Positions 7,992 through 30,534 of a DNA stretch of 64,000 nucleotides are shown piece by piece. How positions within the stretch are numbered: the first letter of the stretch is position 1; every line of letters begins with the position of its first letter. The position numbers were made by a program, and so were the translations under genes. This DNA comes from Vampirovibrio chlorellavorus. GTDB lineage: Bacteria; Cyanobacteriota; Vampirovibrionia; Vampirovibrionales; Vampirovibrionaceae. The notes under the pieces are model-generated. The model saw nothing but the letters and a program-made list of their open reading frames with translations. It searched no databases and was not told where the DNA came from. The stretch covers positions 124,001 to 188,000 of the forward strand of contig CAIPMU010000014.1 of the NCBI GenBank assembly GCA_903866275.1. Direction: 5' to 3'.

Positions 7992-10314
7992 GCGAGGGGT
8001 CTCCTTGGTGATGGGCGAGGGCTTCGATGAAAAAGGCGGTTAGCTCCTCAACGACGTAGGGGTCTTCGTATAAAATGCCATTTTTTTCCAGAATCGAGGC
8101 TTGGGCCTGACGGCGGATTTCCGGGTGCTTGGCCCACTCACAGGCTCGTGCAACGTATTCTGCCGGGGATTGGGTGACGAATTGAGACAGCCCCATGCGC
8201 TGATAACAGGCCGCAGTGACGCGTCCGCGCATGAAGGCGCTGGGCAGGGTCACAATGGGAATGCCAAAGGCCAGCGCCTCATAAGTGGTATTGCCGCCGC
8301 CAAAATGCAACGGATCCAGCATCACCGTAGCGCAGGTTAGCAGCTGTAAAAATTTCTCCCGGCTGCAACCGGGCACAAACTGCACCCGATCCAGTACATC
8401 GGGCATGCTTTGGCTGAAGCGTTGCTTGAGCTGCTCGCAAACGGCCGCCTGACCGGGGTCCAGCAAGATCAGTTTGCCTAATGGATCTTGCCGTAAAATT
8501 TCCGCCAGAATGGGATCAAAGTCCGGGTGAAATTTATAGAGCGACTGCGGGCAGAGATAAATGTGATCCGTGTCGTCCCAGCCAAATTCCGCCCGTGGCG
8601 AAGACGGCCCTTGCAGTTGCGGCTTGAAGTAATACGTGGGCAAGCTATCCAGCAAGATCAGCTTTTCGCTATACTGCGTTTGCGCGTCATCCGGTTCCAG
8701 TGCCTTGCTGGAAATAAAATAATCGATGGTGGGAATGCCGGTAGTCACCGGATGCCCCCAGGTGACGCACTGCACCGGCGCTAGTCGGGTTTGGGCCAGC
8801 AGATAGCTGAATGGGTCCATGCCAATGTCGGGGTAAAACAGAATATCGAGTTGGGCGGCTTTTATTTGCGCCACGCTCTGCTGCAAGCTGGGGTAGGGCA
8901 ACAGATACACATGATCATCTGGGTGCATTTGCTGACTGGGGGTAAAGGCATGCTTGGTGGGCGTGGAATAAATATAGATCTCAAACTGTTCGCGGGAGAG
9001 CTGTTCCAAAATGCCCTGCATCAATTTGCCAATGGTGTGCTTGGGCGATAAATGCCCGGAGATAAACCCCAGGCGAATCTTCGTTTTTTGGGGTGGCGTG
9101 GTGGTGTTTTGGGCCGATGGGGAGAAGGGTTTCCCGGCCTCGGTGAGCGAGGGGAGCAATTTTTGGTACACCGCTGCCGTTTGGATTTGCAGGGCTTTAT
9201 CAGCGAGTCCCTGATAGGCCAGATAGAAATGCGCCCCGGAAAACGTGCCCACATGGTGCGCATCAATGGGATCGATGGGGCGTTGTAATAACACTTCTAG
9301 CCCGGCCTCGTAGCGCTGGCGCCAGGCGTGGAGTTCTTCGGTGCTCTGGTAAATCATGGGCAAGGCCAGCACCTGATTGAGTTGGGTGTTGGCATGGTGC
9401 GGGTGTTTCAGGGCCAGCGCGTCATAAATACGTTGGGCTTCCACAAAGTAGCCTTTGCCGCTCAAGGTTAGGGCCAGTTGCGCCAGATCGTCCCGCTGAT
9501 GGGCGTAATCTTGCAACAGGGTGTCCAGAATCTCCAGCGCTTCCGGCATGCGGCTTTGTTCGCTGAGCACGATGGCCAGCTGGGTCAGCGCGCCGGGATC
9601 GTGGGGGTGAATGGCCAGCGATTGCCGGTAAAAGGCCTCGGCATGTTCATACTGGTTCATTGTTTTGGCCACCAGCCCCAGCATGCTGTGCGCCCGGTAA
9701 AATCGGGGCTCTAGCGTAATGGCTTGCTGAAAGGCCGCAATGGCTTCGGGCAGATTGCCAAACTGTCGCAGGGCATTGCCCAGATTAAAATGTGCCTCCG
9801 TGTAGGTGGGCTTAAAGGCAATCGCTTTTTGATAGTGCTGAATGGCGATCTCGGTTTCTCCTAGCGCTAGATAGGCGTTGCCCATGTTGTTGTAGGCCTC
9901 AGGAATTGAGCGATCCAGTTGTAAGGCCTTCTGGTAGTGATGCAGGGCGGTGGTATAGGCCCGTTGTTGTTGGCAGGCATCGCCCAGTAGCAAGTGCACA
10001 TCCACATTGCGGCGATCCAGCTTGAGGGCGGTTTCCAGCACGACCAGCGCGGCTTCTGGATTCTGACTGGTGAGTAGGAGATTGGCCAGATGAAGCTGGA
10101 ATTCAATCTGCCGTGGTTTAATGGCTACCATTTGCCGGGCAAATTCAATGGCTTTGGGTAGCTCGCCGTTTTGTTCGCTGAGCACGCTACTAAGACGCAG
10201 GGCGTCGATGTTTTTGGGATCCTGAACCAGGATTTGTTGGTACAGCGCCCCCGCTTCGGCCAGTTGACCTTGTCGGTGCTTCTGTAGCGCGCTTTCCAGG
10301 GTCGGCGCCACCAT
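7984..10314 (-). CDS. TPR-GT41 protein glycosyltransferase (O-GlcNAc transferase/SPINDLY-like)
   Basis: The 776-residue protein has about nine TPRs over residues 1-320 (for example PEAYNNMGNAYLALGETEIA). A GT41-type catalytic half follows from about residue 400 (IRLGFISGHLSPKHTIGKL). The C-terminal donor-binding part contains DPLHFGGGNTTYEALAFG and PIVTLP, the best conserved GT41 segment. GT41 enzymes move a sugar from a UDP (or GDP) donor to Ser/Thr of cytoplasmic proteins, with the TPRs holding the acceptor. The gene is coupled by an 8-nt overlap to a sugar C-methyltransferase and lies about 2.3 kb beyond the flagellar cluster. Flagellin or pilin could be the acceptor, but this is inference. 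Confidence 0.85.
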   Translation of the reverse strand: MVAPTLESALQKHRQGQLAEAGALYQQILVQDPKNIDALRLSSVLSEQNGELPKAIEFARQMVAIKPRQIEFQLHLANLLLTSQNPEAALVVLETALKLDRRNVDVHLLLGDACQQQRAYTTALHHYQKALQLDRSIPEAYNNMGNAYLALGETEIAIQHYQKAIAFKPTYTEAHFNLGNALRQFGNLPEAIAAFQQAITLEPRFYRAHSMLGLVAKTMNQYEHAEAFYRQSLAIHPHDPGALTQLAIVLSEQSRMPEALEILDTLLQDYAHQRDDLAQLALTLSGKGYFVEAQRIYDALALKHPHHANTQLNQVLALPMIYQSTEELHAWRQRYEAGLEVLLQRPIDPIDAHHVGTFSGAHFYLAYQGLADKALQIQTAAVYQKLLPSLTEAGKPFSPSAQNTTTPPQKTKIRLGFISGHLSPKHTIGKLMQGILEQLSREQFEIYIYSTPTKHAFTPSQQMHPDDHVYLLPYPSLQQSVAQIKAAQLDILFYPDIGMDPFSYLLAQTRLAPVQCVTWGHPVTTGIPTIDYFISSKALEPDDAQTQYSEKLILLDSLPTYYFKPQLQGPSSPRAEFGWDDTDHIYLCPQSLYKFHPDFDPILAEILRQDPLGKLILLDPGQAAVCEQLKQRFSQSMPDVLDRVQFVPGCSREKFLQLLTCATVMLDPLHFGGGNTTYEALAFGIPIVTLPSAFMRGRVTAACYQRMGLSQFVTQSPAEYVARACEWAKHPEIRRQAQASILEKNGILYEDPYVVEELTAFFIEALAHHQGDPSHG

Positions 10315-10512
10315 GCGTATGGACCTCTCTCAAAATAGGGTTCCTTTCCATTGAATCATCCGCCTGCCCGACTCGCCTCCATTGGCTGGAGGAGGTGGCT
10401 GAGTCTGTGGGCTTTGCCCGTTGGCCACGCCAATTGAGCCATCACAGGCGGGTGGGTTTGTGGGACGCTCCTTACGAAAGACCGAGATCAGACGGGTGTC
10501 ACAGGGCTTCAG

Positions 10513-11142
10513 TTATTCCGTAATTTCCAGCCCTTCACCGCCCAGTACGGTGAGCGGTTTGCCCTCAATGGTCAGTTTCATCTTTTTGGGGCCCTCGACG
10601 GCTTGCACCGTGTCTTTCAGTTCTTCCACCCGTTGAATCATGCTGGTGGAACCGCCGCCTTCCGTGAATTCATGACTCAGATTAATCGTCACCGCATTCC
10701 AGGATACAGTAACGCCAAGCAAGCGTGTTCCTGCAGGGATTTCGCTGTAGAGGCCTGCCTCTTTTTCTTCGGCGGTGGGACCTGCCAGTAATTGTTGCAA
10801 AGCTGATTCCAGTGCGGTGTGGTTGGTGTGTGTGGGGATGGGGCGATCAATGCTTTCGGTGATGCTGGTATCACCCTGTAGTTTGCTGAAATGGACGGGC
10901 CCAATGGGTTGAGGCTCTGCCAATATCGGCGTTGCGGCGGCAGGGAGATCGGGAGCAGGGGAACTATGGATGAGCGCCATGGTGCCCAGAAAGAGTAACA
11001 GGGCAAGGGCCAGCAATACCGTGAGCTCAAGACTGTTTTTTTGTCTCGGGCTGAACCAGCCGGTTACCGCTTGGGCCGGGACTGCTTTGAAGGGATGCTC
11101 CCTGAACTGACGCCAGGGCAGGGTTGGTGGTGAAAAGGTCAT
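10513..11142 (-). CDS. GerMN-domain membrane-anchored protein
   Basis: The start at 11142 is chosen because AAGGAG lies 7 nt upstream of this ATG; the frame is open further upstream but reads like non-coding DNA. The 209-residue product has one TM segment at about residues 39-58 (LTVLLALALLLFLGTMALI). An extracytoplasmic GerMN-like domain follows (about residues 110-200): ALQQLLAGPTAEEKEAGLYSEIP, then VTINLSHEF and a C-terminal strand repeat. GerMN domains occur in spore germination and sporulation proteins, but also in envelope proteins of non-spore-formers. The precise role is unknown. It is upstream of the GT41 gene on the same strand, about 200 nt apart. Confidence 0.75.
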   Translation of the reverse strand: MTFSPPTLPWRQFREHPFKAVPAQAVTGWFSPRQKNSLELTVLLALALLLFLGTMALIHSSPAPDLPAAATPILAEPQPIGPVHFSKLQGDTSITESIDRPIPTHTNHTALESALQQLLAGPTAEEKEAGLYSEIPAGTRLLGVTVSWNAVTINLSHEFTEGGGSTSMIQRVEELKDTVQAVEGPKKMKLTIEGKPLTVLGGEGLEITE

Positions 11143-11306
11143 ACGGGATCTCCTTCTCGTCATCACGGCAGCGTATGCCGGGACTATCCCGTAAGCCATC
11201 ATAGCGGATTCTGATCGTCCTGACATCGCCCGGATGATTTCAGGGCAAAGACGATCGGGTGATTGGGGCAGCCTGAAGCGCGTCGGCCAACCGTTAAACG
11301 GCTGTC

Positions 11307-21786: not shown

Positions 21787-22428
21787 TTGCCAGTGATCGC
21801 TTTTTCTCCGCTCAGCGTGCGGATTCTTCAGTCTTTTTTTCAAAAGCGGGTAAGCTGGGTCTGCGTGCTGGGTATGGCAGGTTTGCTTTTGCCCCTGTCG
21901 TCCTGGAGTCGCGCGCTTTCTGATGCTGAGAGTCTGGCGGGTGGGCAAGTGGTGATCCATCAAAATCAGCCCGCTACGCCAGAGGACGTCCCGTCGGTGG
22001 AGGCCAGGATTCTCATTGCCCGTCCGCCGGCCAAAGTGTGGACAGTGGTGAGCGATCCGGAAAAGTTGATGGGCAATGAGTCCAAGGTGCGTAAGGTGAA
22101 GGTGGTGTCCCGTTCGCCCGGCAAGCAGAACGTGGCATTCAGCGTGGTGATGGCGCCATTTTTACCGGCCTTTAATTATGTGTTGCTTCAGGAGCTGGCT
22201 CCACCCAGCCTGTTACGCTTTCATCGCATCAGCGGCAGTTTCCGGGATATTCAGGGTTCCTGGCACTTGTTACCTGCCGATAATGGGAATAAAACTGTGC
22301 TCTCCTATACGCTCAAGCTGGATCCGGGGCCCTTGGTGCCGCGCGCACTCTTGCTGCCTGCGGTCAAATCGGATTTGCCCAATATGATGCGTAGCGTCAA
22401 AGCATCGATCGATCAGAATACGCTATAA
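21787..22428 (+). CDS. SRPBCC (START-like) family exported protein
   Basis: The 213-residue protein has an N-terminal hydrophobic stretch (about residues 24-41: VCVLGMAGLLLPLSSWS) that fits a signal peptide or anchor. A polyketide-cyclase/coenzyme-Q-binding type fold follows: VEARILIARPPAKVWTVVSDPEKL, then strands and WHLLPADNGNKTVLSYTLKLDPGPLVPRALL. These folds bind hydrophobic ligands such as lipids or quinones. The start is TTG with GGAGG 10 nt upstream; a GTG two codons later is possible. A possible Tic20-like gene follows after 182 nt. The ligand is unknown. Confidence 0.72.
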   Translation: MPVIAFSPLSVRILQSFFQKRVSWVCVLGMAGLLLPLSSWSRALSDAESLAGGQVVIHQNQPATPEDVPSVEARILIARPPAKVWTVVSDPEKLMGNESKVRKVKVVSRSPGKQNVAFSVVMAPFLPAFNYVLLQELAPPSLLRFHRISGSFRDIQGSWHLLPADNGNKTVLSYTLKLDPGPLVPRALLLPAVKSDLPNMMRSVKASIDQNTL

Positions 22429-22610
22429 GCCTTTTTAAAATTCGCCCTTTAAAACGGGATTGAATGTGTGCGATCGAACGTTGTGAGATTTCAACGGATC
22501 GCTCTGGTGTTTCCGGTTTAGAATAAGAATAACGGTTGGTGGCAACGGCAACCCAGTCAACGCATTTTGAAGCTTGAAGCGTGATATGAGTTTTAAGGCA
22601 GGCAAATCGG

Positions 22611-23234
22611 ATGAGTCGTTTTAAAAATGTGGTTCCTTTTCCCTCGGAAAAGAAAAATGATTTTAATCTGAAGCTGTTTGCCATGCTGTTCTATGTGTTC
22701 GTGGCCTACCTCCTGACTCAGGGCAAACCGTTGGGTGAGGACGGCCTGTTTATCCTGATGATTCTGGGGGTGTTGTTTAATTTCATGGTGCGTCAGCGTA
22801 TTTATCGCACCAGCTATTTTCGGGATAACAGAGTGATTCTGGGCATTTTGCTCGTGCTGTTTGCGGTGCTGTATCCCCTGTTTGTCATCCTGGGTCTGGG
22901 CATGGCGGGCCTGTTTTGGTTGCTGGTGGGGCGCACAGGCCGAGAGGCGCCGTACTTTCTGAAATTTCATATGCTGACGGCGCTGATTTTTAGCTTTTTT
23001 CTGTTGATGCCCACTCTGATTCTCCGGGCCGTGCTGGTGATGGTGGCACAGGCATTGGTGCTGGCCCAACTGGTTGGGGCCGGACAAGTTCTGAATAAGA
23101 TGGCGGTGCTACAAGTGCCATTGCTTTTAACGGGCGTGATCTGGGGTGCGACGTTGTGGTTGTCCATCAGTGTGTTGATGGGACGCACGCCGTATTTGCC
23201 GGTTGTGACCGATAACGTGCGCAGTCTGGCTTAA
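22611..23234 (+). CDS. Polytopic membrane protein, possible Tic20-like family
   Basis: The 207-residue protein has about five hydrophobic segments: LKLFAMLFYVFVAYLL, GLFILMILGVLFNFMV, a pair around VILGILLVLFAVLYPL and GMAGLFWLLVG, then two to three after residue 120. The segment APYFLKFHMLTALIFSFFLLMP resembles the Tic20 signature in which (V/A)P-hydrophobic-(R/K)F(N/H)xxQAL opens the next helix. Tic20 is the membrane channel of the chloroplast import machinery and has cyanobacterial homologues of unknown role. The similarity is judged by eye and could be chance for a hydrophobic protein. It precedes the bcs-like genes by about 245 nt. Confidence 0.5.
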   Translation: MSRFKNVVPFPSEKKNDFNLKLFAMLFYVFVAYLLTQGKPLGEDGLFILMILGVLFNFMVRQRIYRTSYFRDNRVILGILLVLFAVLYPLFVILGLGMAGLFWLLVGRTGREAPYFLKFHMLTALIFSFFLLMPTLILRAVLVMVAQALVLAQLVGAGQVLNKMAVLQVPLLLTGVIWGATLWLSISVLMGRTPYLPVVTDNVRSLA

Positions 23235-23479: not shown

Positions 23480-26320
23480 TTGAAAAAGGTTTTGTTGGTA
23501 GTTGTGGTGGTGTTGGCCCTGGTGGCCACGCTGCTCCTGTTTGGGCAAATTTCCACCCAGGATCCATCGACGGCGGCCTTTGGCTCTGAATCTTCCATTG
23601 CGGATTATGCCTCGACTTATTCGGGCGTGTTGTCTCGTCCGCTGTTTCCCAATACGTCGCTCTTTTTGCCGCTGTTGGCGCAAGTGGCGTTTTCCGGCAT
23701 TTTGGTGCTGGCCATTGTCATCACCTCGCTGTTCTTTCCGGGTGCGCGTCGGTTTGTGATGTGGCTGACCATTTTGACCAGTATCCGCCATCTCTTGTGG
23801 CGGGGTTATGAAACGCTCGATTTCAGTTCGCCACTGGCCATTGGGATTTCCGTTTTAATCTATGGGGCTGAGGTGTTGGCCTTTTTCGCCATGACCATTG
23901 GCTATTTTCAGGTGTGGGGACAATCAGAACATCAGGCGGTCACGCTGGCCAATTTTGCCCCCGAGCAACTGCCCACCGTGGATGTGATGGTCTGTACCTA
24001 CGGCGAGCCGGTGAGTGTGTTGTATCGCTCGCTGGTGGGTTGTATGAGCATGGACTATCCCAAGAAAACGGTGTTCCTCTGCGATGACGGCAATCGTCCG
24101 GAGATGAAAGAGTTGGCGGAGCGGTTGGGGGTGACCTATATCACCCGTCCCAATAACACCCATGCCAAAGCGGGCAACCTGAACAATGCCATGCAATATA
24201 GCAGTAGCGATCTGGTGCTGGTCTTCGATGCGGATCACGTGCCTTGCAAGAGCTTTTTACAGGAAACCGTGGGCTTCTTTGTGGATGATCGGCTGGGCTT
24301 TGTGCAAACGCCCCAGCACTTCTTTACCGATGATCCCTTTCAGCGGAATTTGCTGGCCGCGCAACAGATTAACAACGAGCAGGATTTATTCTTCCACGTC
24401 ATTCAACCCGGTAACGATTACTGGGGCGCTGCCTTCTTTGCGGGCAGCGGGGCGATTTTTCGCCGGGCGGCGCTGGCCAGCGTGGGCGGCTTTGCCGTGG
24501 AAACCATCACGGAAGACGTACACACCGGCATGCGCATTCATGGCAAGGGCTGGAAATCCCTCTATTACAACCGCGATCTGGCCGCCGGGATGGCTCAGGA
24601 CAGCTTTGCCGATGTGATCAAGCAACGCCTGCGTTGGGCGCGTGGCATGACCCAAATTTATTGCCTGGAAAACCCCCTGTTTGCCCGTGGATTGAATCTG
24701 GCACAGCGGCTTTGTTACTTTACTGGCATCTGGTATTTTTTCCACGGCTTGCCGCGATTGATCTTTATGATCGCGCCGTTGTTTTTCCTGTTGTTTGGCT
24801 ACAAAACCGTGAATTCCGGTTTTGTGGAAGTGTTGATCTATTATGTGCCCAGCTTTTTGGTCACCACCTTGGGCTACACCATCATTTCCCGAGGTGTGCG
24901 GCATAGTTTTTGGTCGGAAGTGTATGAGGCCTGCTTCTGTGTATACCTCAGCCTGACGACGTTCCTCACGTTTCTCTCGCCGCATCGGGCCAAGTTCCGG
25001 GTCACGCCCAAAGGTGGTCTGACTGAAAAACTGAACTTCAACTGGCGCATTGTGTTCCCGCAGGTCATGATTGCTGCCCTGACCATTGTGGGCATCGGCA
25101 TGGCCATTGTGCGGGCCATTTACACCCCGGAATACGCCGGGGGGATTTACACCAATCTGGCCTGGTCCTTGTACAATTTAATCCTGCTGTTGGGCGCGAT
25201 TTATGTGGCCCAGGAGCGTCCCCAGTTCCGGCTGGCCCCACGTATTTTCCGTCGAATTCGCGCTGAATTAAAATTAATGGATGGCTCCATTGCGGTGGGT
25301 TACACCACCAACATCAGCGAGAGTGGCGTGGCGCTGGTCTTTGATGAGCCGGTACCCATTACGGGCACGGTGCTCCTCAAACTGATGGATTGGGATATTA
25401 ACGAAACCAGTATTTTTTCCGCGCAGGCCAAGCGCAGCACCATTTATGAAGGCAACCGGCATTATGTGGGCTGCCAGATCGTGAACCGCACGGAAGAGCA
25501 GCATCAGAAACTGGTGCGCCACATGTTTGGGTCCGCTGAAACCTGGACGAAAGATTATGTCTTCACGCCCACCAGCAAATCGTTCTGGAGCCTGATGATG
25601 ACGCCCTTCCGTCTGACCGGGAACCATGAAGAAACCCTGAAGCGGGTCGCGCCCCGGTTTAGCGCCACGTTATCCTGCGTGCTGAATCTGGACGGTCAGT
25701 TTGTGGTGGGTTTCTCCAATGAAGTGAGCGAGTCGGGCATGTCTGTCTTTCTGAAACGCGGTTCGGCGCTGGCGTTGGGGCAATCGATCAAGTTGCGCTT
25801 GCAGTGGCCCTCCGGCGATATTAGCGAGCTGTCGGCGGAAATTAAGCGCGTGGAAGATGTGGGCGGTGGACAGATTAAAATCGGTTTGGCCTTTGTGCAA
25901 CTGACCAATGAACAGCGTGCAGAATTAATTCGCCAGATTTATCGCCCCAAGGAGCGCCTGATTCGCACCGCACCCACGGTCAGCAAGTTTGTTAGTTGCG
26001 CCATTGTCCCGGTGGATGGTAGTCCGCCTGTCTCGGGCATGAGCCGTGAAGTGAGTGAGCAGGGTGTGCTGGTCAGTTTAAAAGACCGCAGCAATTTGCA
26101 GATTCGCCAAAAAGTCTGGGTGCAATTCACCTGGGAAAACGGTCAGTTGGGCAAGTACCCCGGCGAAGTGATGGATCTGTCAATCTATTACGATAGCCCT
26201 GTCGCGTTGATTTACTTTAGCGGACTGGATTTAAAAACGCTGGATGAACTGAGTGAGCGCTTGCATCAGCCGGAGGAGAGCAAGGCCTTTGGTGCGCTGG
26301 TCGGCGATGAGCGCGCTTAA
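23480..26320 (+). CDS. bcsA: BcsA-like processive glycan synthase with three PilZ-like domains
   Basis: This inner-membrane family-2 glycosyltransferase polymerises and exports a beta-glucan-like chain. TM segments lie at about residues 4-22, 60-86 and 118-143. The GT core has DDG (about 202-204), DAD (250-252), FFAGSGAIFRR (319-329), TED (344-346) and QRLRW (382-386), the full BcsA set. Further TMs lie at about 408-578. Three PilZ-like modules follow (about 584-690, 718-815, 827-925) where BcsA normally has one. Module 1 has RLAPR and NISESG; module 2 keeps RVAPR but has EVSESG; module 3 has RTAPT and EVSEQG. Only module 1 looks fit to bind c-di-GMP. The TTG start has AAAGG 7 nt upstream. 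Confidence 0.85.
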   Translation: MKKVLLVVVVVLALVATLLLFGQISTQDPSTAAFGSESSIADYASTYSGVLSRPLFPNTSLFLPLLAQVAFSGILVLAIVITSLFFPGARRFVMWLTILTSIRHLLWRGYETLDFSSPLAIGISVLIYGAEVLAFFAMTIGYFQVWGQSEHQAVTLANFAPEQLPTVDVMVCTYGEPVSVLYRSLVGCMSMDYPKKTVFLCDDGNRPEMKELAERLGVTYITRPNNTHAKAGNLNNAMQYSSSDLVLVFDADHVPCKSFLQETVGFFVDDRLGFVQTPQHFFTDDPFQRNLLAAQQINNEQDLFFHVIQPGNDYWGAAFFAGSGAIFRRAALASVGGFAVETITEDVHTGMRIHGKGWKSLYYNRDLAAGMAQDSFADVIKQRLRWARGMTQIYCLENPLFARGLNLAQRLCYFTGIWYFFHGLPRLIFMIAPLFFLLFGYKTVNSGFVEVLIYYVPSFLVTTLGYTIISRGVRHSFWSEVYEACFCVYLSLTTFLTFLSPHRAKFRVTPKGGLTEKLNFNWRIVFPQVMIAALTIVGIGMAIVRAIYTPEYAGGIYTNLAWSLYNLILLLGAIYVAQERPQFRLAPRIFRRIRAELKLMDGSIAVGYTTNISESGVALVFDEPVPITGTVLLKLMDWDINETSIFSAQAKRSTIYEGNRHYVGCQIVNRTEEQHQKLVRHMFGSAETWTKDYVFTPTSKSFWSLMMTPFRLTGNHEETLKRVAPRFSATLSCVLNLDGQFVVGFSNEVSESGMSVFLKRGSALALGQSIKLRLQWPSGDISELSAEIKRVEDVGGGQIKIGLAFVQLTNEQRAELIRQIYRPKERLIRTAPTVSKFVSCAIVPVDGSPPVSGMSREVSEQGVLVSLKDRSNLQIRQKVWVQFTWENGQLGKYPGEVMDLSIYYDSPVALIYFSGLDLKTLDELSERLHQPEESKAFGALVGDERA

Positions 26321-26400
26321 ATTGCAAGGCAGGCATGGTTTTGACTGCAACGACTTTGATCGAGAGATGCTGGTTTGAATAACGGAATAAAGTGAGTGTT

Positions 26401-29400
26401 ATGAAAAGAGAATGGCTAGGAATAACGTTGGCAATTGGGCTCGGCCTGAGTTCATCGGCTTGGGCAATTCAACCGGCTCCCGGCAATAAAAACAATTTTT
26501 CGCCGGTGAAATTGCAACGTGTGCGGTTCAGTCATCTGGAGAATCTGCAACTATTAGCACTGGCGAGCCCGGGGCCAAGGGCCAGCCATCAGGCGCAATC
26601 GCCCGTGCAGACCAAAAAATCCGCAATCCCTCCTTCAAAAGTGCAAGGAGCGCCTGTGTCGTTGCTGAATGTAGGCATTGCCCACTATCAGCGCGGATTT
26701 ATCGCCAAGGCGATTCCTGCCTTTGAGCAGGCGGTGAAGCAGAATCCCCAAAGTGAGCTGGCGAATCTCTGGTTGGCGCGGGCATCGCAAAAGCAGGGCA
26801 CCCCTGCGGATATGCAGCGGGCCAAGCAGGCGTATCAGAATGTGTTGGCGAGTAATCCCAAAAATCTGGAAGCCTTAACGGCCTTGGGTGAACTCTGGAG
26901 TTGGGATCCTGCCACACGTGGTGAGGCCATTGGGTTGCTGAAGCGTGCTTATGCTCTGGTGCCCCTTGATGGACGGGTCTGCAAGACACTGGCTGAAGCG
27001 CTGCTTTGGCAGGGTAATGCCGCCGAAGCCTTGCGTTATGCCGCACCCATTGCCGATTTGTACCGTAGCGATCACAAATGGATGGGCGAATATGCCCAGA
27101 TGCTGGCCGCAGCGGGTCATACCGATGAAGCCGTGAGACTGTATAGCACCGTGCTAAAAGACGATGCGGGGCGCAGTGTCTACTTGCGGATGGATCAGGC
27201 GCGCGCCTTGTACAAAAGTGGTCATCGGGCCGACGCTTCCGCGTTGTTCGATCAGATTGCCCAATTCGTGGCGGGTAAGCCCGTGGCCAGTCAGCCGGAT
27301 TTCATGCAGTCTATGGGCTCGCTGGCCTTTGATCTGGATCGTTATAATGACGCCCTGCATTGGGATCAATCCTTGCCGAGCGTGTATCAGCGTCACAAGG
27401 ATATTCAGTTGCGGGAAGCCCGTGCGCTGACCAAATCCGGGCGGGTGCCGGAAGCGATTGAGCATTTTAATCATCTCTATGAGAGTGGCTTACTCACTCT
27501 GGATGAAAAGCTGGAGTTTGCCGAGTATCTGCGGGTGCTGCATTTGCCCCCCGAAGGTTTGCCCTCGCCCAATCTGCTGGAGGCGCTCTATCAGGATGCC
27601 GTGCGCGATGGCGGCGGAAGTCCGGAGATTCAACTGCGTCTGGCGCGGTATTACGCGGACTCTCCTGAGCGTTTTGAGGACGCCATTACGGCGTATCAGC
27701 AGGCGTTGACGGGCGGCATGCTGTCTCATTCTGACGCTGTGAAAAAAGAGTTTCTGGACTTTCTGAAATCGGATAAATCCCAGGCGGTGCGTGTGGAGGC
27801 CTTGTTTAAAAGCATGTTGAGCGCCGCGCCGGATGATATTCAGACCAAGGCGGCGTTTGCCGAATTTTTATCCTGGCAGAAAGAGCGCCGCGTGGAAGCC
27901 ATGCGTCTCTATGCAGAACTGGATAAGGCCGATCCGGGGAATGCGGAAATTTGGCAGGCCCGAATTGATGAAGTGCTGAAGTGGCATACTCCCACCACGG
28001 CGCTGATCCCGATGTATCAGGAAATTGTGAATCTATTCCCGCAGGATAAGGCCCTGTGGATGACCGTGGCACGCGCCTATCGGAGTGATCCGGAGTACTA
28101 CACCGAGGCTGCTGGAACTTACAGCATGCTGGTGCAAAAATTTCCGGATGATGGCACCATTAAAAAAGAATGGCTGGGCCTGTTGCTGTCGAATGTGTCG
28201 CATCGCTCGCAGAACATCAGTCTGTTGAAAAAAATGGTAGAGACCAATCCCACTGATCCGGATATTTTGGCGACTTATGGCAAATTGCTCTCGTACGAAC
28301 ATCAGTACGCTCTGGCCATGGAAGCCTTTGAACATGCCTTGCGCTTGAACGAGACTCATCGGGAAGCCCTGGTGGGCAAAGGGTACGTCATTCTCTGGAG
28401 TGGCCGTAAACTGGAGGCCAAGTCGTATTTTCAGGTGTTGCGCACCCGGTTCCCGGATGATGTGGATATTGCGATCGGGCTGGCTCAGGCTGAAAAGTCC
28501 AACGGCCGCTATGATCAGGCCATGCACATCATTCAGGAAATCAAACCCCTGATGGATCAGACCCAGCAGAAAGTGCCGGAATCCAGCTGGCTTAGCCCGG
28601 AGGTCTTTCCTGCATTTGAGCAAACTCTTCAGCTGGTGGCCCAGTGGGATGACGGGTCAACGGCCTATAAACGCAATGCGGTGAGTGATTTCTCGATTCT
28701 GCCCTATGCCGAAGAAACCCCGGTGGCGGTTTCACCCCAAACACCCACATCGCGATCTTCGGCCAGCGTGGCTCGCGCTTCCGCTGATCAACAGCGCCGT
28801 GATCAGGGAGCTGTTGATCAGGCATTTGCTGAACAACGGGCTATGGTGCAACAGATTCATGATCAACATCGTCTTGATCAACATAAAATTGATCAGGCCA
28901 TTGCTGAGCAACAAGGATCTGATCAGCGGAAATTTGACCAACATAGATCTGATCAACAAACGGGTGGTCAACATCAGTTTGATCAACATGGGCTTGATCA
29001 ACAGGTTGCTGCTCAACGGGGATCTGATCAACAAATGTCTGATCCCTCGGCGCCAGATTTTGCCAGTGGCAAGCTGGCCGGACTGGAGCCTGTGGTTAGT
29101 AGAGATGATACTACACCACCCACGGCCATGATGGCGACTCTGGAACAGGCCACCGCATCTGCGGCAAGGGGCAACTCCAGTCATTATGCTACGCTGCAAT
29201 CGCAGATGGATACGCTCTCGACTGCCGGCGAAACAACAACTGCCTCCTCCTCCGGGGGGCAAGCTGCTCGTGTTTCGGTGGGTGAAAGTGGCATGAATAA
29301 AGCCTATGGTGTTTACAGCGCTCTGGACTACGACACCAATCCCCTGTTGTCCGGTTTGGGCCGCTTCCGTAACGATGATCTGATGGATTTGGAAAAGGGG

Positions 29401-30534
29401 ATGACCAACGATTTACGCCCCATGATCCGGGGTGGGTTTTTATACAGTCAACAAAACGGGAACGCCACCACGACGCGTCTGTCGAGTCAGGGTTTCCCGA
29501 ACCAGTTGAGCTTTTCGCTCACGCCGCAAATTCGGCTGCGGGGCGGGATTCGTCCGACCCGGTATTACTTGCCTCAAGGCAAGAACCCCAGCTCGAATCT
29601 GGGGATTGAATACAGTGTGGGCGGCACGGTCAAGTATTGGGATCGCCTGACCCTGGATGGCGATATGGGCATCACCAATTTCCGGCAAACCGATAACGTG
29701 AACCTGACCTATCAGGGGCAGGCCCAGTATGCCTTCAGTGATGCTGTGCGTATGAAAATGGGTATGAGCCGTCTGCCGCAGTTTAACTCTCTGCTAACCG
29801 TAGCGGGCCAGAAACCCAATCTCGGTTTTTATCAGGGGCAAGTGCTGGGTCAGGCCCGTGAAAATAGTTTTTACGGCGAGTTGAACACCAACCCCTTCAA
29901 TCAAAACTGGGATTGGAACCTGGGTTACGCCTGGGCCTGGATCAACGGTGCCCACATCCCCCATAACGATAAAAATCAGATGTTTACTTCGCTGGGTCAT
30001 AGCTGGAATTTGGGTGCCAATCACAAGCTGCGACTGGGTTATGAATTCCTGTATTTTGGCTACGGTAAAAATGCCACCAGCGGCTTTTTTGATACCACCA
30101 CGCTGGGGTTGAATGTCCCGGTGGCCAAGCTGGATCCTGTGACGGCAGCCAGTTCCAAGTTTGTCTATGGCGGTTATTACAGTCCCACGTTCTTTATGAT
30201 GAACGCAGGACGTATGGACGTACAAGGCAGCTGGTTTAACAAGTTGCTGGAATACAAAGTGGGTGGCAGTCTCGGCGCGCAAACTACGGCGATGGGCCAT
30301 AATATTCATACCGGCAACGGAAGCCGCATTACCAGCGCCGTGGATGGTAACCTGATTTTTAACATGAACGACTGGCTGGCCGCTTATGGCGACGTGGACT
30401 TTCTGAACGCGGGTGGACAGTTCAACCGCTGGCGCTTTGGCGGTGGTCTGATTATTCGTCCCCATATTGACGCCCTGTCGCCTGTCTTTGGTCGCCAGAA
30501 AATGGCCAAAGCGGCCAAGGCCTCGGCCAATTGA
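26401..30534 (+). CDS. bcsC: BcsC-like TPR/outer-membrane beta-barrel export protein
   Basis: The protein carries an exopolysaccharide chain across the periplasm and outer membrane. A signal peptide is clear (MKREWLGITLAIGLGLSSSAWA). TPR-like helices run from about residue 85 to 770. A 17-unit pentapeptide repeat follows (about 796-880), then a linker, and a C-terminal beta-barrel domain of about 400 residues containing GVYSALDYDTNPLLSG and GGYYSPTFF, close to the BcsC C-terminal signature. ATG 26401 is chosen to fit the signal peptide; an in-frame GTG at 26392 is possible. It follows bcsA by 80 nt. No bcsB lies between them, unlike the enteric operon. Confidence 0.83.
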   Translation: MKREWLGITLAIGLGLSSSAWAIQPAPGNKNNFSPVKLQRVRFSHLENLQLLALASPGPRASHQAQSPVQTKKSAIPPSKVQGAPVSLLNVGIAHYQRGFIAKAIPAFEQAVKQNPQSELANLWLARASQKQGTPADMQRAKQAYQNVLASNPKNLEALTALGELWSWDPATRGEAIGLLKRAYALVPLDGRVCKTLAEALLWQGNAAEALRYAAPIADLYRSDHKWMGEYAQMLAAAGHTDEAVRLYSTVLKDDAGRSVYLRMDQARALYKSGHRADASALFDQIAQFVAGKPVASQPDFMQSMGSLAFDLDRYNDALHWDQSLPSVYQRHKDIQLREARALTKSGRVPEAIEHFNHLYESGLLTLDEKLEFAEYLRVLHLPPEGLPSPNLLEALYQDAVRDGGGSPEIQLRLARYYADSPERFEDAITAYQQALTGGMLSHSDAVKKEFLDFLKSDKSQAVRVEALFKSMLSAAPDDIQTKAAFAEFLSWQKERRVEAMRLYAELDKADPGNAEIWQARIDEVLKWHTPTTALIPMYQEIVNLFPQDKALWMTVARAYRSDPEYYTEAAGTYSMLVQKFPDDGTIKKEWLGLLLSNVSHRSQNISLLKKMVETNPTDPDILATYGKLLSYEHQYALAMEAFEHALRLNETHREALVGKGYVILWSGRKLEAKSYFQVLRTRFPDDVDIAIGLAQAEKSNGRYDQAMHIIQEIKPLMDQTQQKVPESSWLSPEVFPAFEQTLQLVAQWDDGSTAYKRNAVSDFSILPYAEETPVAVSPQTPTSRSSASVARASADQQRRDQGAVDQAFAEQRAMVQQIHDQHRLDQHKIDQAIAEQQGSDQRKFDQHRSDQQTGGQHQFDQHGLDQQVAAQRGSDQQMSDPSAPDFASGKLAGLEPVVSRDDTTPPTAMMATLEQATASAARGNSSHYATLQSQMDTLSTAGETTTASSSGGQAARVSVGESGMNKAYGVYSALDYDTNPLLSGLGRFRNDDLMDLEKGMTNDLRPMIRGGFLYSQQNGNATTTRLSSQGFPNQLSFSLTPQIRLRGGIRPTRYYLPQGKNPSSNLGIEYSVGGTVKYWDRLTLDGDMGITNFRQTDNVNLTYQGQAQYAFSDAVRMKMGMSRLPQFNSLLTVAGQKPNLGFYQGQVLGQARENSFYGELNTNPFNQNWDWNLGYAWAWINGAHIPHNDKNQMFTSLGHSWNLGANHKLRLGYEFLYFGYGKNATSGFFDTTTLGLNVPVAKLDPVTAASSKFVYGGYYSPTFFMMNAGRMDVQGSWFNKLLEYKVGGSLGAQTTAMGHNIHTGNGSRITSAVDGNLIFNMNDWLAAYGDVDFLNAGGQFNRWRFGGGLIIRPHIDALSPVFGRQKMAKAAKASAN
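28786..29040 (+). repeat. 17 tandem 15-nt units encoding a pentapeptide repeat
   Basis: Seventeen units of exactly 15 nt run without any insertion or deletion. Eleven begin with GATCA; the second codon is Gln (CAA or CAG) in all 17. The first residue is Asp in 12 units, Glu in two, and Val, Gly or Ala once each. The consensus peptide is D-Q-(H/Q/R)-x-(L/F/S/I/A). Third to fifth residues vary, and synonymous changes are frequent, so the array is old or diversified. It sits between the TPR region and the barrel of the BcsC-like protein. Confidence 0.95.

Follow-up and report, generated by a model that had tools for sequence, protein, structure and literature searches.

BcsA is the textbook c-di-GMP-gated enzyme and has a single PilZ domain. 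In Vampirovibrio, a predatory relative of cyanobacteria, we found a BcsA-like gene whose product ends in three PilZ-like modules (M1, M2, and M3), only the first of which is canonical. Are the two additional modules genuine PilZ domains, are they maintained by selection, and what could they contribute to a synthase already equipped with one? The gene lies in a 64,000-nucleotide stretch of DNA (the window) from a 3.0-Mb host genome (G000), whose relatives include Vampirovibrio chlorellavorus NCIMB 11383 (LAPX01000004.1).

The synthase and its three PilZ modules

The open reading frame starts with TTG, just behind an AAAGG (Table 1). The complete GT2 catalytic set of BcsA (D, D, D, QxxRW) is present in the 946-aa protein, as is the BcsA-type PilZ domain following the last TM helix with RxxxR and (D/N)xSxxG, namely M1. 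Structures of E. coli BcsA align with residues 56-706 (E 2e-135). Residues 64-691 match TIGR03030 (CelA) with 647.5 bits, under the curated cut-off of 699.1, and NF008558 scores 561.6 bits against a cut-off of 992, so the CelA equivalog cut-off is not reached. From its sequence, the protein is probably a BcsA-like beta-glucan synthase whose product would be cellulose. We take Asp374 to correspond to the acidic residue that, in BcsA, partners the PilZ-linker Arg. Among the 14 triple-tail orthologues, only the divergent L026 has another residue (Q) there, and only L026 has lost the gating loop.

Table 1 Features of the bcsA-like gene and of the downstream gene (window coordinates; residue numbers in brackets)
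Feature	Position	Strand	Description or evidence
bcsA-like gene	23480..26320	+	946 aa, GT2 processive glucan synthase, triple PilZ tail, TTG start
Catalytic motifs DDG (202-204), DAD (250-252), TED (344-346), QRLRW (382-386)	24083..24637	+	Sequence, BcsA alignment
Asp374, acidic residue 8 before QxxRW	24599..24601	+	D in 13/14 triple-tail orthologues
Gating loop KFRVTPK (FxVTxK, 505-511)	24992..25012	+	FxVTPK in 13/14 triple-tail orthologues
PilZ module M1 (580-690), canonical	25217..25549	+	Pfam PilZ 37.0 bits alone
M1 motif RLAPR (584-588)	25229-25243	+	Sequence
M1 motif NISESG (611-616)	25310-25327	+	Sequence
Linker (691-715)	25550..25624	+	Aligns with post-PilZ segment of single-PilZ BcsA
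PilZ module M2 (716-822)	25625..25945	+	Pfam PilZ 50.4 bits alone
M2 motif RVAPR (722-726)	25643-25657	+	Sequence
M2 motif EVSESG (748-753)	25721-25738	+	Sequence
PilZ module M3 (823-932), degenerate	25946..26275	+	AlphaFold2 and Foldseek PilZ fold
M3 motif RTAPT (829-833)	25964-25978	+	Sequence
M3 motif EVSEQG (857-862)	26048-26065	+	Sequence
BcsC-like gene, downstream of bcsA	26392..30534	+	1380 aa, TPR families; TPR array, Q/D-rich repeat linker, presumed barrel-type C-terminal region

All three modules are C-terminal to the last TM helix, and the Pfam PilZ profile matches three stretches of the whole protein (91.5 bits). Searched alone, M1 and M2 each exceed the Pfam cut-off of 22.5 bits, whereas M3 stays below it with 18.7 bits; among M3 members, 11 of 13 are matched by the same profile at E<=1 (best 7e-9). 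Profile comparisons connect M3 with M2 (99% probability, E 5.5e-18), M2 with M1 (98%, E 1.4e-13), and M3 with M1 (97%, E 6.7e-11), and the M2 profile matches the PilZ domain of MotI/YpfA (E 1.4e-8), with MotI nearest to M2 among solved structures. The tail was modeled with AlphaFold2 from 12 orthologues; the model (mean pLDDT 71.8) contains three barrels of six strands with C-terminal helices and finds PilZ proteins as its best PDB matches; its pTM of 0.44 supports the domain folds but not the arrangement of the barrels. M3 modeled alone reached a pLDDT of 80.8 and a pTM of 0.72, and Foldseek aligned it with PDB PilZ domains (probability 1.00), the best being 4i86, the PilZ domain of a cellulose synthase. 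Judged from its model, M3 is a PilZ six-stranded barrel despite its sub-cut-off Pfam score.

The first-pass annotation, made from the sequence alone, had described a BcsA-like synthase with a canonical PilZ domain and two further PilZ-like modules (25229-26260, that is, codons 584-927). Its open reading frame and motif positions proved exact to the base, profiles and models agree with the domain assignment to an extent well above chance, and a fold other than PilZ for M2 or M3, which it had named as grounds for abandoning the idea, was not what the predictions returned.

Conservation, selection, and spread of the tail

All triple-tail orthologues have R584, R588, and (N/D)xSExG in M1. Every orthologue in which M2 is complete has R722 and R726 as well as the Ser and Gly of this module; at the D/N position of M2, most have Glu, L010 and L011 have Asp, and L012 and L013 have Gln. 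M3 retains R829, but none of the 14 complete copies aligned has the second Arg, in place of which stands T, S, G, V, A, or another residue; its second motif is ExSExG across orthologues, with Asp for the first Glu in L026. The degeneration of M3 noticed at first in a single sequence is therefore conserved. The R-x-A-P opening then thought to be common to the modules fared less well: both Arg of M2 are conserved, but the rest of the likeness is partly coincidental, as the motif is RRTPR or RRTLR in the M2 of most orthologues. In a census of 39 genomes of the phylum, D or N came first in 62 of the 64 PilZ domains having both motifs, and the remaining two (one Glu, one Ala) both appear to be poor motif placements. 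With Glu in at most 1 of 64 domains, its presence in M2 and M3 is a real departure that belongs to this clade.

These patterns bear on the proposal that M2 and M3 had both lost ligand binding. For M3 the proposal is sound, as the loss of the second Arg together with Glu at the D/N position makes c-di-GMP binding unlikely; M3 would most likely be a structural or docking barrel. For M2 it is unproven, given the invariant Arg pair, Ser, and Gly, the Asp in two orthologues, and the precedent of Myxococcus PixB, whose two PilZ domains have RxxxR without the Ser of the second motif and still bind c-di-GMP in vitro (PMC8316039). Like the synthase described here, PixB is a multi-PilZ enzyme (two PilZ domains and an acetyltransferase) with RxxxR kept and the second motif altered; it differs in the enzyme and in that the motif Ser is absent from both of its PilZ domains. 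It is quite possible, if short of an even chance, that M1 and M2 both bind c-di-GMP and that the response of this multi-site sensor is steeper or shifted, M3 alone being ligand-free. The conserved residues of M2, the behavior of PixB, and the proximity of M2 to MotI all speak for such a sensor, whereas the replacement of D/N by Glu or Gln in most M2 orthologues, rare elsewhere in the phylum, speaks against it.

In another reading, taken from the first-pass annotation, M2 and M3 would be nucleotide-free modules devoted purely to protein-protein contacts or oligomerization. The second Arg is indeed lost throughout M3 and the D/N residue in most M2, and the degenerate xPilZ domains of other systems act as scaffolds (PMC10333796). 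However, an RxxxR that is invariant in M2 over two families would be unexpected, though the Arg may serve structure, and we regard a purely scaffolding pair as about as probable as the multi-site sensor. A response of M2 or M3 to another nucleotide or ligand, as the conserved but altered sites could suggest (R with ExSExG in M3, RxxxR with ExSExG in M2), seems unlikely to us: there is no candidate ligand, and the Ser, Glu, and Gly may have a structural function.

Is the tail maintained? Among genus members, Nei-Gojobori dN/dS was 0.06-0.08 for the catalytic part, about 0.02-0.13 for M1, 0.08-0.15 for M2 where dS was finite, and 0.19-0.22 for M3, values that are rough because dS exceeded 1 in most comparisons and was near saturation. 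M2 and M3 are under constraint, more weakly than M1. Neutral decay of M2-M3 was ruled out by these ratios, subject to the near-saturated dS.

Of the 18 order-level genomes searched, 14 have the full triple tail, comprising all 10 of the family of the host (f1) and all four of family f3, with none in the four genomes of f2; the copy of G002 runs into a contig end inside M3. The alignments of the other BcsA-like proteins of the class stop around residue 722 or earlier, which leaves each of them at most one PilZ region. The other outcome that would have undone the initial description, a single PilZ domain in all relatives and an extension due to an error of assembly, does not fit this distribution, and assembly error was ruled out as the source of the tail by its recurrence in 14 independently assembled genomes. 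That the tail is a passenger or an artefact, for which only the weak Pfam score of M3 could be cited, is extremely improbable in view of the shared tail in these assemblies and of dN/dS far under 1. A scan of a genome collection used two short clade-specific patterns, which other phyla's triple-PilZ synthases could escape; on plasmids, none were found.

The initial description also treated M2 and M3 as duplicates. The profiles support a relationship among the PilZ modules, and M2 and M3 are more similar to each other than either is to M1. Descent from M1 is unproven, as the tree of the modules (~100 aa each) places each in its own group without resolving the order of duplication. The M2-M3 tandem pair was already there before families f1 and f3 split.

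Other members of the synthase family were seen in these genomes. L026, on contig C2 of G009, is a second, divergent triple-tail paralogue in which the gating loop is replaced (AKQIQNRL) and DRVRW stands for QRxRW; it is probably a degenerate synthase, to judge from these substitutions. In three shorter BcsA-like paralogues from f1 and f3 genomes (L028, L029, and L030), the gating loop is retained and the RxxxR Arg pair is missing (KREDVTF, KREDIRF), a motif change with which they may not respond to c-di-GMP.

Gene neighborhood and other bcs genes

The BcsC-like protein encoded downstream of bcsA gave a weak BcsC match (5e-5), and its C-terminal region matched no PDB entry, and no solved barrel, by sequence. 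Its orthologues adjoin bcsA in L033, L034, L036, L039, and L040; no such gene was detected beside bcsA at the other neighboring loci examined, some of which are short contigs. Residues 798-883 of this protein (window 28783-29040) form a Q/D-rich short-period repeat of xDQ-type units. Upstream of bcsA (window 21787-23234) are genes for an SRPBCC-like protein and for a small membrane protein that belongs to no known family, both conserved beside bcsA in the genus.

No bcsB was found in the bcsA cluster. Two tandem BcsB paralogues are encoded far from it on contig C11 of the host genome (L053:6749-8956 and 9033-11279), near genes similar to those for tyrosyl- and tryptophanyl-tRNA synthetases. 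Within the order, BcsB was confined to f1 (8 of 8 genomes searched) and was not found in any of the four f3 genomes. The f3 genomes retain the triple-PilZ synthase although no BcsB is detected in them, which makes the tail independent of BcsB. Besides the synthase, a single PilZ protein was detected in the host genome (229 aa; L054:3696-4385, contig C20); it has RKHVR and DVSGGG and is encoded beside sigma-factor and anti-sigma-like genes.

A proposed role for the tail and its relation to known systems

In BcsA, binding of c-di-GMP to the RxxxR linker and a PilZ strand makes the PilZ domain rotate and frees the gating loop (PMC11470070). All of the M1-side residues required for this type of gating are present in the Vampirovibrio protein. 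From the conservation of M1, of the gating loop, and of Asp374, we infer canonical gating, in which a c-di-GMP dimer on the RxxxR linker and NxSxxG strand of M1 would release the loop. With 12 GGDEF matches in the host genome, c-di-GMP is likely made. M2, whose Arg pair is retained under selection, may provide a weaker or altered second nucleotide site, and M2-M3 together could be an accessory regulatory module acting in cis beside M1 or a platform for partners. On balance, we consider it somewhat probable that the protein is a glucan synthase gated by c-di-GMP through M1, with M2-M3 as an appended regulatory or docking pair.

The PilZ domain is where BcsR and BcsQ touch the E. coli synthase, and E. 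coli has in BcsE a second sensor of c-di-GMP (PMC11470070). The role of M2-M3 may be comparable to that of these proteins, namely c-di-GMP sensing and buttressing of the PilZ domain. BcsE was not detected in the nine genomes of the order searched, and no partner protein was identified. One could go further and imagine a built-in second regulator, made of an altered site and a ligand-free barrel, that does within a single chain the work of the separate E. coli proteins BcsE, BcsR, and BcsQ and sets the c-di-GMP threshold for polymer secretion, possibly in connection with prey attachment; we hold this fuller scheme to be doubtful.

The components of the protein are all known, and what appears to be new is the triple-PilZ arrangement on a synthase. 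It shares with BcsA of E. coli and Rhodobacter sphaeroides (TIGR03030) the GT2 motifs, QxxRW, the FxVTxK loop, the TM region, and the post-TM PilZ domain, but differs in the two extra C-terminal PilZ modules, the sub-cut-off CelA score, and the cluster without bcsB. The receptors YcgR, MotI, PlzA, and MrkH also have tandem barrels, with a degenerate partner (xPilZ) in the YcgR/PlzA type. However, they are soluble two-barrel proteins with the canonical PilZ domain at the C-terminal position, whereas here the canonical domain comes first and the modules are fused to a synthase. Among open-licence papers, none was found that reports two or three PilZ domains in a cellulose synthase, and cyanobacterial synthases are described in a review with one PilZ domain (PMC12430437).

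Conservation of the extra PilZ copies in the order suggests that polymer production is controlled at a second level. The triple-PilZ BcsA offers a natural series of intact, half-degenerate, and degenerate modules on one enzyme, in which the tuning of gating could be tested. A regulated glucan synthase is also indicated for Vampirovibrio, which has an attachment pad on Chlorella. The 2015 genome paper proposed a type IV secretion system for the pad, and its main text mentions neither cellulose, PilZ, nor c-di-GMP (PMC4451040).

Among the close known systems, those of the same phylum are the XcsA-type PilZ synthases of oxygenic cyanobacteria, which also have a canonical M1 and, after the post-PilZ segment, an extension of ~120 aa. 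This extension gives no Pfam PilZ match, has weak similarity to the M2 profile (56%), and is not followed by an M3. Oxygenic cyanobacterial matches at profile positions 114-250 were considered as a second PilZ domain and rejected, since the loci show them to be the canonical first PilZ of these synthases. The extension past PilZ and linker was seen in the synthases L057-L066 and, on its sequence, may be an undescribed, diverged PilZ-like domain.
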